Made by a program: the position numbers and the translations under genes. The notes under the pieces were generated by a model. That model worked only from the letters and a program-made list of their open reading frames with translations, was not told the DNA's origin and ran no database searches. Source: Favolaschia claudopus (Eukaryota > Basidiomycota > Agaricomycetes > Agaricales > Mycenaceae). From it: a DNA stretch of 64,000 bases. Where the stretch lies: the NCBI GenBank assembly GCA_037176885.1, contig JAWWNJ010000003.1, positions 1,054,001 through 1,118,000 of the forward strand, read 5' to 3'. Shown here piece after piece: positions 19,390-22,060 of this stretch (within the stretch, counting starts at the first letter, position 1; every line of letters begins with the position of its first letter).

Positions 19390-20040
19390 ATGGGGGTCCA
19401 AAATGACCTTAAACTAGGAGAGCATGAACTGCCAACCTCTTCTGTGTAGCTGACGAGGACGAGTTGGATAACTGTTACCCTCGTACTTCTGCACAAGTGC
19501 AGGAGCATGACTTAGCGCTCTGACAAAGGGTCCGTGATGACTTTAAACTAGAAGAAGAAGAACTGGAACCCTCAAGACTGTGTAGTTGACGAGGACGAGT
19601 TGGATAACTGTTACCCTCGTACTTCTGCACAAGTGGAGAGGACGAGTTTGACTTCTGATAAGGGGTCCGAAATGACGTTAAATGATGGAACGGGTCTGAA
19701 ATGACCTTGAACTAGAAGAACATGAACTGCAACTGTGTAGTCGACGAGGACGAGTTGGATGACTGTTACCCTCATACTCCTGCACAAGTGGAAGAGGATA
19801 ATAATAATAATAATAATAAGGCAAGGGCCCACGAGGGGTACCGCCTACTCATACAAGAGGCTCCGAAATGACGATAAACTAGGACAGAACTGTTACCCTC
19901 CTTTGTCTAACCTGCAGAAGAGGATGAGTTCAATCTATGGCCGCTCCTGGAACACAAGATGTCCGCAATGACGATAAAACTACAAGAGGCTCCGAAATGA
20001 CGATAAACTAGGACAGAACTGTTACCCTCCTTTGTCTAAC
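19390..20040 (+). repeat. Complex tandem repeat, about 130-bp unit (left part)
   Basis: Units carry GGTCCGAAATGACGTTAAACTAG-like starts (near 19396, 19527, 19663, 19690, 19860, 19963, 19989) and a block GACGAGGACGAGTTGGATAA...CTGTTACCCTCGTAC...GCACAAGTG (three good copies at about 19454, 19577, 19742). That block is open in one frame (DEDELDNCYPRTSAQV) and changes little at the residue level. An (AAT)n microsatellite lies at 19799-19819. The right-hand continuation is at 21799-22060. Could be a decayed repetitive gene. Confidence 0.7.
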
Positions 20041-20544
20041 TGTAAGGGGAGAAGGGCCCAGGAGCCAAGTCGATAACAAACCTGGGGATCAGAGATCCCC
20101 AGCGGACTACTTATATACAAGAGGTGACGTAAGATATGACATAAGTGAGCACACAGCATGATCTCTTGGAGACAGAGAACTTCTGCCCAAGTCAAAGGAC
20201 GTCCTAGCTGTGGAATCCCCTGAAATCACCCCCTCTTCAAAATTCGTCGCCTCGACGAAGACCAAAGCCCGGTAGAATGAACGATCTTTCAAAATCCTGG
20301 ATCGCCACGGAAGAGTAGGTTGCCCTGGGAGTCAATCCGCGAATCTGACGCAGACACTGCACCGCCTCGCCGTGCCGTCTGTTGTCGACGTCCCCTTTCA
20401 ATGCGATTGTAATTAGAGAACTTTGTGAGTTAGAATCAAAGTAGTAGAGTAAATAGAATGTCAGAGTATCAGCGCAAAAACAACTTGAAAACAATGTAGA
20501 GAAGGAAGGCAACAGAGAGGACTGGTCGGCCCAAGTGGCAAATT

Positions 20545-20822
20545 AGCATTTTCACCCCTTTTGACTTGATTTTCATGGACTTGACAAGTGAAATATAAGA
20601 GTATTGTACATGAATAGGAACCAAGTGAATCCTTTTTCATGAGAACTTCACATGAAATTCACTCCAAAACTAAGTGAATGAGCCCCATGAAACGTTCCAT
20701 TCACTTAGTCCAACTACGTGAATTGAACTGGGTGAAATTCACAACTTTCCAGTGAAACTCACCTGGTTATCAGGTGAATTTCCCCCGAAAATGAGGTGAA
20801 TCAACTAGGTGAAATTCACGGG
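20545..20822. repeat. Word-rich repeat, GTGAATTTCACC family
   Basis: Dense in GTGAAATTCAC, AGTGAAT and TTCACTT on both strands. Lies inside the KH element between its stop codon and 3' LTR. Probably a nested MITE; precise ends not resolved. Confidence 0.55.
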
Positions 20823-21574
20823 GTTTGCCGGCCACAGTGACTGGCCACTGGAGGGGGTGGAACCGGAGCCGGTGGCTGAGACGGATGGACGGGGTGTGCG
20901 CGCTTTTTTAGCGGGCGAGCGCCCTCGCCAGAAGCGTTCGGCAAAACCGGCACCGGGCCAGGAGGGGGAGGGGCAGGGTCCCCGGAAAGGTGTGACGGAC
21001 CTTTCTTCTTAGAACGGATACGCTTACGCATGAAACGCTTCCCAAGCGCAATTAGCGCTTCACCGATTTGCTGGTCGGTACCACGGATAGATACTCGGCG
21101 CTCCAAGGGGGAAGCCTTATCAGTATAGGCTCGAAGTTGGGCGCCGGAGATGTCGTGCGACTGATGAAGACCCTTACCACCACGGCCAACGATATGCCCG
21201 ACGACCGAGTCAGGCACCACAAGCGTACACGAGTAGCGGGACGGTGCGTCCTGTGCAGTAGGGAGGGTTTCGGCGAGTGGTATGGCGGTGTGGCCGACAG
21301 CGATGATGGCAGGGGTAGGGGCTGGGGTTGAAGGTTCAGAGCCCCAGCGAGCGCCATCCCAAGAGAAGCGCCAGGCATGCCCTCGGGGAGTAGAGGCTGC
21401 AGTGTCCCCAAACTCAAGACGATCAAGACGGTCGTGGACGCGCTGTAGTTCGCTTCGAAGGAGAGTGCAGTAGGAATAAAGGTCCTGAGGAACTGCGGGG
21501 GTTGCTATAGCAAGGGAGGTGTAAGGTCGATGGTAGGATGAGGGCAGAGTAGGAAGTAGGGTGGTCGGCTGGGG
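20816..21574 (-). CDS. KH-domain protein carried by the LTR element
   Basis: Open for about 250 codons with no ATG in frame, so the true start must come from an upstream exon or from further 5'. The C-terminal half holds a single KH RNA-binding domain: YSCTLVVPDSVVGHIVGR, GxxG loop (GRGG), then ISGAQLRAY and RRVSIRGTDQQIGEALIAL. A basic stretch (KRFMRKRIRSKKK) and a proline-rich tail follow. The N-terminal half has a leucine/arginine heptad stretch (LRDLRDHVRQLESRL) that may be a coiled coil. By position it replaces gag; binding the element RNA for packaging is a reasonable inference. The stop falls at the edge of a word-rich insertion, so the tail may be shortened. Confidence 0.75.
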   Translation of the reverse strand, partial: PQPTTLLPTLPSSYHRPYTSLAIATPAVPQDLYSYCTLLRSELQRVHDRLDRLEFGDTAASTPRGHAWRFSWDGARWGSEPSTPAPTPAIIAVGHTAIPLAETLPTAQDAPSRYSCTLVVPDSVVGHIVGRGGKGLHQSHDISGAQLRAYTDKASPLERRVSIRGTDQQIGEALIALGKRFMRKRIRSKKKGPSHLSGDPAPPPPGPVPVLPNASGEGARPLKKRAHPVHPSQPPAPVPPPPVASHCGRQTP

Positions 21575-21798
21575 CTAGGAGAGTGCCAGAGTCGAATAGA
21601 AGGTTTGTTATGCTGTAAGGGGAGAAGGGCCCAGGAGCCAAGTCGATAACAAACCTGGGGATCAGAGATCCCCAGCGGACTACTTATATACAAGAGGTGA
21701 CGTAAGATATGACATAAGTGAGCACACAGCATGATCTCTTGGAGACAGAGAACTTCTGCCCAAGTCAAAGGACGTCCTAGCTGTGGAATCCCCTGACA

Positions 21799-22060
21799 CT
21801 AACCTGCAGAAGAGGATGAGTTCAATCTCTGGCCGCTCCTGGAACACAGCAGCTTTACCTTTGTAACTGGTTCAACTCTCGGAGGAAGTGTATTTGTGCA
21901 CCATCTCTAATTGATGGAGGAAGCCTTACACACCATTGTTAGAGCCGATTTCTCAAAGACCTGTTGTCGATACCGGATTGGATATAGGCTCAGTCCAAAA
22001 TGACCATAAACTATTCCTACCCCCAATTGTCCGAAATGACATCAAACTACGCCTCTCAGC
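21799..22060 (+). repeat. Complex tandem repeat (right part)
   Basis: CTAACCTGCAGAAGAGGATG continues exactly as at 19917, showing the pre-insertion sequence. Two more TCCGAAATGAC...AAACTA units near 21993 and 22030. Confidence 0.65.

Follow-up and report, generated by a model that had tools for sequence, protein, structure and literature searches.

The window analysed here, a stretch of 64,000 nucleotides of the Favolaschia claudopus genome, harbours an element bounded by long terminal repeats (LTRs) in which a KH-type protein stands where gag would be expected. The locus raises the question whether the KH gene belongs to the element, and how a unit of this kind could be transposed. The first-pass annotation had considered either a parasite of another element's machinery that brings its own RNA-binding or packaging factor, or the transduction of a host RNA-binding domain. 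No description of such an element appeared among the matches listed by searches of open-licence papers in PMC, most subscription journals lying outside this coverage.

The window copy and its family

The element occupies positions 20041-21798 of the window on the minus strand, and its parts are named here in element orientation. The 5′ LTR (21614..21798; TGTCAGGGG...CCCCTTACA) and the 3′ LTR (20041..20225) are both 185 bp long and differ by a single mismatch at position 2, one LTR tip of this copy being mutated. Within the 5′ LTR a TATA box (21680..21692) precedes the putative self-primer AGGTTTGTTAT (21646..21656), the presumed 5′ end of the transcript, which begins 34 nt downstream of TATATA. 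Two bases (GC) separate the end of the LTR from the primer-binding site (PBS) ATAACAAACCT (21601..21611), with an 11-nt complementarity to the primer. The remnant of the open reading frame (20816..21508) includes the KH domain with its GRGG loop (21020..21235), recognised by Pfam KH_1 and by PDB sequence matches. A palindrome TCGTCGAGGCGACGA (20244..20258), related to the chromovirus sequence GCGTCGAGGCGCCGC, precedes the polypurine tract (PPT) GAAGAGGGGGTGA (20226..20238), which adjoins the 3′ LTR. The unit thus has two LTRs with TG...CA ends, a short target duplication, a PBS and a PPT, as expected of an LTR retrotransposon. Six-frame reading of its 1,388 internal bases by eye revealed no other long frame recognisable as reverse transcriptase (RT), protease or integrase, in agreement with the first-pass annotation.

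The duplicated target CTAAC flanks the element at 20036..20040 and 21799..21803. An unoccupied duplicate of the target with a single CTAAC is present at 19852..19956 of the plus strand: 19852-19911 is identical (60/60) to the left flank of the element and the 50 nt of 19907-19956 are 98% identical to the right flank. Besides confirming the LTRs, the duplication and the purine tract on the correct side, all of them proposed earlier, the analysis thus supplied the empty target. Local duplications of approximately 60 bp, spaced by 129-155 bp, extend over 19442-20040 beside the insertion, and one of them preserves this empty target. A search with the joined flanks detected an uninterrupted target at C120:74137-74322, where 186 of 190 nt match at 99%. 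Since the target is itself repetitive, with more uninterrupted matches elsewhere in the genome, the C120 site may be a paralogue and not the other haplotype.

The window copy is a defective member of a multi-copy family with intact copies elsewhere in the genome. The start codon of its ORF has been lost, and in the 3′ half about 441 bp (20399..20839) of an unrelated TIR repeat have taken the place of 266 bp. This repeat of 855 bp has the ends CACTGTGGCCGGCAAACCCCG..., and 409 genome candidates were found for it (40 scored). A template-switch chimera had been considered for the odd 3′ half and was dropped when the terminal half of this repeat was found there. The left edge of the inserted piece is the TIR end, the deletion being on one side; because a repeat end sits at one junction, insertion followed by deletion is the simpler reading. 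The earlier proposal of a single KH gene stands for the family, in which it is the sole conserved gene, and not for the window copy with its lost start and interrupted 3′ half.

Undamaged copies are 1,585 bp long (LTR 185, internal part 1,215, LTR 185), and the canonical ones carry the KH protein of 348 amino acids in a single uninterrupted 348-codon frame. The genome yielded 558 candidates for the LTR (40 scored) and 251 for the KH protein (150 scored), and by hand count the same 370-codon open frame was present in 51 of the 150 scored KH matches. For the assembly of 265 Mb the available text of the genome report gives 86.8% of BUSCO genes as duplicated (PMC10905254), so many copies are probably present on both haplotypes. 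Identical flanks were found for a solo LTR (L018) and an element (L020), which probably represent one site in two haplotypes. All 15 copies whose two outer LTR ends were available, the window copy included, have 5-bp duplications (three of the 15 represent one shared site), so that the multiple LTR-flanked copies that the first-pass annotation had suggested looking for do exist. Solo LTRs with duplications occur too, and dispersal is multi-copy with empty sites. Copies L010, L011 and L019 occupy a single insertion site on different contigs; the frame of L019 is broken by many single-base insertions or deletions.

The LTR/leader junction gave 154 matches at up to 3 mismatches, versus 7 for the reversed pattern. 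Among the 100 junctions listed, 78 have, by coordinates, a listed KH match within 1.6 kb, and the remaining 22, read individually, all start as KH element. Eleven of these 22 stop after 29-128 bp of KH element sequence; three pairs among the 11 each have one breakpoint in common, which makes them look like haplotypes, and the remaining ones have different breakpoints. A full-length partner carrying pol behind the same LTR, as envisaged by the first-pass annotation, did not appear among the 100 listed of the 154 junctions, 78 of them assessed by whether a KH match lies close by and 22 by reading. Behind one of 21 fetched junction loci (L055, contig C38, one of the 11 that stop early) helper gag/pol was found as a rearranged fragment lacking a 3′ LTR, and the next 3.5-4 kb behind three other junctions contained no helper gag or pol. 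At this locus (C38:1257346) the KH leader is followed by half of an unrelated fold-back repeat and then by the rearranged chromovirus fragment (gag and part of pol); over the next 5 kb neither a KH nor a chromovirus 3′ LTR follows. We read the arrangement as a nested insertion, a recombinant being the alternative. Across C38:1256700-1264000 (L088, L055 and L087) the 3′ end of a KH element, its LTR and the leader run into the half fold-back repeat; the sister locus L052 has the complete fold-back repeat and no chromovirus.

Several unusual copies were encountered. A KH subfamily that has diverged (about 85% identity) is represented by L040, L041 and L042, which have one interruption close to the C-terminus in common and are accompanied by other repeats. 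They had been considered a larger form of the element with additional genes and turned out to be copies interrupted by other repeats, with no pol in the frames examined. In L051 an LTR start of chromovirus type (TGTCAGGGGAACCCCC...) lies directly within the KH ORF, a KH element having apparently been the target of an insertion. The gene model P0013 fuses a Gag-like N-terminus, which we take to be of copia type, with part of the KH LTR and with the KH ORF; the annotation probably runs across an insertion.

Self-priming layout and termini shared with a chromovirus

The PBS ATAACAAACCT of the KH element starts 3 nt after the LTR and pairs over 11 nt with AGGTTTGTTAT inside the LTR; in L078, a chromovirus of the same genome, AGAAGAAAGGCT, placed with an equal offset, pairs with AGCCTTTCTTCT over 12 nt. 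Shuffled LTRs matched these primer/PBS lengths in 9 of 20000 cases for the KH element (computed on the L014 copy) and in 5 of 20000 for L078. Cross-matches between the PBS of one element and the LTR of the other reach only 6 and 5 nt, and the primers are unrelated. The distance from TATA to primer is 34 nt in the KH element and 33 and 34 nt in the two chromovirus families. For the second of these families the junction CCCTTACAGCAGAAGACAGGA was predicted from the LTR before it was seen; it is present exactly at 14 places among the matches listed, the other 86 listed being the form of the first family, and at up to 3 mismatches 276 matches were found versus 1 for the reversed pattern. One exact place lies 10.3 kb upstream of the 3′ junction of the C8 copy. 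With its 11-nt complementarity, the covariation in three element families and the TATA spacing (the transcript start being putative), the arrangement corresponds to the Tf1/sushi type and suggests that the geometry of the primer pairs is kept while their sequence is free. Tf1 is primed by the first 11 bases of its RNA, which are cleaved by RNase H (PMC7175516, PMC4600332, in the parts available). As in Tf1, Tf2, Tj1 and Tcn1, the first bases of the KH element RNA, if it starts at the predicted position, would be complementary to a PBS just behind the LTR. Unlike the autonomous elements of the Tf1/sushi type, which encode pol, the KH element has none, and its primer/PBS pair differs from that of its presumed helper.

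The pattern of the PPT/LTR junction gave 802 matches against 306 for the control, and two exact PPT classes, GAGGGGG (the KH-element form) and GGGGGGG, were present among the 100 listed junctions of the 802. All six fetched loci with GGGGGGGTGATGTCAGGGG (GGGGGGG) proved to be one type of LTR element in two families about 77% alike. In five of the six the match to the 3′ end of the KH element extends over 43-44 columns (82-84%, best E 4e-6), and in L071, the remaining one, it comprises 18 nt without a difference. A complete copy is present in L078, with LTRs of 385 bp within an identical repeat of 387 bp, the duplication ATAGA, gag and a pol frame of 1,343 amino acids. In this frame RT, RNase H, the integrase zinc-binding domain, a Tf2-type SH3 domain and a chromodomain (E 5e-9) exceed their cut-offs, which the integrase core and most of the models for protease do not reach. 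L077, of the second family, has RT, RNase H, the integrase zinc-binding and Tf2-type SH3 domains and a chromodomain just under cut-off (E 2e-5), and L071 terminates in the same chromodomain stretch as L078. The chromovirus Gag contains a Retrotrans_gag domain as well as a CCHC stretch resembling a knuckle, which lacks one residue in L078 and is complete in relatives. Among the listed junctions, 5′ and 3′ ends of the chromovirus pair at 5,165-5,309 bp on 10 contigs; other pairs are 4.8, 5.9 and 9-29 kb apart.

This pol-bearing chromovirus shares with the KH element the pre-PPT palindrome, the PPT, the LTR start TGTCAGGGG, the LTR end CCCTTACA and the GC spacer. Beyond the termini almost nothing is common: LTR bodies, leader and primer are unrelated, and apart from the 3′ end only matches of 10-12 nt were found, so the partnership is read from the signals. 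Since the shared tips are what integrase and the plus-strand primer need, and the primer pairs differ and are equally placed, we regard the element as a satellite of these chromoviruses. The earlier idea of a parasite of another element's machinery accordingly looks right, with the qualification that terminal signals and the self-priming layout are all that the two share. A further short match was noticed: the KH LTR sequence GACTTGGGCAGAAGT (L014 LTR 33-47) is found inverted in the U3 of a family-1 chromovirus (L071 6378-6392; 15 nt, E 0.02; just 12 nt in L075) and possibly represents a shared regulatory site.

The shared 3′ end of about 43 bp could also mean that the element originated as an internal-deletion derivative of the chromovirus, since decayed, which acquired the KH ORF later. 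The motif PMx[V/I]D near the C-terminus, common to 89 of 129 KH and 57 of 85 Gag proteins (shuffled KH sequences: 0.3), would fit such a history; it may be a shared docking or processing motif and, though far above shuffles, is too short to prove descent. Given the unrelated LTR bodies, leader and primer, with their 10-12-nt matches, we consider this origin rather unlikely; being compatible with a very old beginning, it is a story of origin and not a competing mechanism.

An improbable alternative is that the same satellite is driven by another autonomous family, of Ty3 or Ty1/copia type, whose ends agree by chance. Of 1472 integrase candidates 150 were scored, the search for termini covered this one set of signals, and P0013 joins a Gag-like N-terminus, presumably copia-like, to a KH copy. 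Against this, five separate signals and the self-priming geometry agree with the chromoviruses. TGG marks a primer site of the tRNA type, and the leader after the LTR reads GCATAACAAACC instead.

The KH protein and selection on its domain

The KH domain with a GRGG loop seen by the first-pass annotation is supported by Pfam KH_1 in the window copy (E 7e-6), and the same model is above cut-off in all six full-length relatives (E 5e-10 to 5e-6), in which two further Pfam entries lie far below their cut-offs. A profile search of PDB sequences matched Nova-1, hnRNP K and PCBP2 (E 6e-8 to 4e-6), and these matches together with KH_1 assign the domain to the type I KH class (KH fold with a GxxG loop). 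With a mean pLDDT of 54.5 the AlphaFold model is modest; it places a helix at residues 10-39 and a KH-like fold at residues 92-162. The top Foldseek matches are KH domains, none of them at E ≤ 0.001. The protein consists of the predicted N-terminal helix, the KH domain, a Pro-rich linker with PMx[V/I]D and a basic QTARR tail.

The first search detected 66 relatives in Favolaschia, Mycena, Dendrothele, Tetrapyrgos and metagenomes, and a profile search 169 (120 listed), with Phlegmacium added. The statement in the first-pass annotation that such proteins abound in mushrooms is supported, as they are multi-copy in several mushroom genomes. Most of 16 aligned proteins share the N-terminal stretch, KH, the Pro-rich linker, SPMxID and QTARR, two being without the C-terminus, and metagenome relatives at 32-40% identity keep the architecture. 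Among listed KH matches from the jgi, ena and lgn sets, 41 of 63 lie on contigs of 1.4-1.85 kb and 12 on contigs above 2 kb, and the same tally for the helper Gag gave 13 and 29 of 61; the tally was copied by hand, leaves out named genomes and matches without a length, and includes three NCBI Gag entries without organism. The contig sizes of the KH matches fit a self-contained unit of about 1.6 kb. An IMG/VR contig (L049) was rejected as a chance match of 45 residues among phage-like genes, and a scan with a wider KH alignment gave no relative.

Comparison of the KH protein with the chromovirus Gag profile showed no homology (hhalign probability 1.2%), and derivation from Gag was abandoned as the comparison was not significant; a CCHC knuckle was not found in any of the 129 KH proteins. 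The C-richness of the transcript had been considered evidence that the KH domain is of the poly(C) type and was discarded, since it does not discriminate: the transcript has 35.5% C and the equally C-rich chromovirus gag 35.6%.

Selection was assessed by comparing each copy with the intact copy L014 and counting changes over the KH region. Between L014 and L040-L042 there are 11-12 synonymous changes and 1 nonsynonymous (Fisher p 3e-7), and between L014 and L035 or L036 9-10 and 2 (Fisher p 1e-4), both values being for chosen pairs and uncorrected. On these five copies the KH domain is under purifying selection between intact subfamilies. Omega is 0.19-0.25 for the N-terminal part and 0.64-0.71 for the C-terminal part, which is weakly constrained and whose tail is interrupted in L040-L042. 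The further copies, many with frames broken outside the KH region, gave the following synonymous versus nonsynonymous counts: L037 11 vs 3, L030 and L031 11 vs 7, L032 11 vs 8, L048 8 vs 6, L044 4 vs 1, L033 4 vs 4, L045 2 vs 2, L029 6 vs 10 and L034 7 vs 16; all remaining ones have at most 3 changes in this region.

These counts bear on the possibility that the element is a passive TRIM-like satellite whose KH protein is idle in transposition, the ORF being a hitchhiker kept open only by the youth of the copies. Near-identical, recently amplified copies would look intact regardless, the C-terminal part is weakly constrained, and two open single copies show no constraint on KH (L046 0 vs 6, L047 2 vs 4), a pattern expected of private changes after insertion which nevertheless counts against selection. 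The scarcity of nonsynonymous changes between intact subfamilies and an architecture kept across species, the distant metagenome relatives included, make this explanation very improbable.

KH is a host RNA-binding domain with sequence matches to Nova, hnRNP K and PCBP, and a host gene family could have been bracketed by, or repeatedly duplicated with, LTRs. The wtf genes of Schizosaccharomyces pombe occur in multiple copies as ORFs between LTRs that belong to self-priming elements, with predicted introns and, in the available text, no evidence of mobility (PMC7175516). The KH units resemble them as multi-copy ORFs between LTRs and differ by target duplications and complete cis signals. A host family can practically be dismissed in view of the LTR-PBS-ORF-PPT-LTR units with 5-bp duplications and empty sites, the 251 KH and 558 LTR candidates, the uninterrupted 348-codon frame, the solo LTRs with duplications, and the exact LTR/leader junction within 1.3 kb of 78 of the 120 KH matches on contigs covered by the junction list. 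In F. claudopus the KH gene is hence the element's own and not, as the first-pass annotation had conceded it might be, a host gene bracketed by chance. Its suggestion of host-domain transduction is unlikely for a recent event, because Mycenaceae and Dendrothele have the protein architecture in common; it is plausible that the KH fold was captured longer ago.

A proposed transposition cycle and its meaning

The KH element encodes neither RT nor integrase and so differs from autonomous Ty3/gypsy or Ty1/copia elements. It resembles TRIM, SMART and LARD elements in being nonautonomous, with LTR, PBS and PPT signals and no pol. To our knowledge those elements have no conserved protein gene and mostly a PBS of the tRNA type; the KH element, with its 348-aa ORF and a KH part under purifying selection between subfamilies, does not share the lack of coding capacity that defines TRIMs. 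LARDs of Laccaria are not described as coding in the accessible part of their report (PMC3411680). The TR-GAG elements of plants are nonautonomous LTR elements with one ORF that use pol in trans, and an Arabidopsis example transposes (PMC8704663, as far as available). The KH element likewise has one ORF and would need pol in trans; unlike TR-GAG, which encodes Gag, its protein lacks detectable Gag homology, KH_1 being the only Pfam model above cut-off, and the element is fungal with a self-priming layout.

We consider it very likely that the element is a nonautonomous, self-priming LTR retrotransposon that lives as a satellite of chromodomain-bearing Ty3/gypsy elements, its KH protein probably binding its own RNA. 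Transcription would start in the LTR at the primer sequence, and the first 11 nt of the RNA would loop back and pair with the site that lies 2 nt beyond U5. After cleavage by RNase H, as in Tf1, the folded RNA would prime minus-strand cDNA, and the plus strand would begin at the PPT. The chromovirus with the same LTR tips, PPT and spacer would supply Gag, RT/RNase H and integrase. The KH protein would most likely bind the RNA of its own element, either bringing it into the chromovirus particle or annealing the primer there; a role in RNA choice or annealing is what such a domain naturally suggests. More tentatively, and leaning slightly towards doubt, one may picture an old LTR lineage distributed across the Agaricales in which the KH protein replaces Gag or nucleocapsid, selects the satellite's RNA, anneals the self-primer and docks this RNA in the particle of the chromovirus with the common terminal signals, the relatives in other species being known from their protein sequences.

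Nonautonomous LTR elements are usually taken as passive passengers. If the more tentative picture is true, the KH protein would be a dedicated hijacking factor encoded by the element and, as far as the literature was searched, a retroelement protein of a kind not described before. With one RNA-binding protein under selection and all else borrowed, the question of how a satellite is packaged would become directly testable, and the unrelated primer/PBS pairs at equal spacing and with equal tips would separate the signals of the shared enzymes from those that may drift. Scores of mushroom gene models annotated as 'K Homology domain-containing', of which a single F. claudopus cluster stands for 60, may be transposon genes and not host genes.
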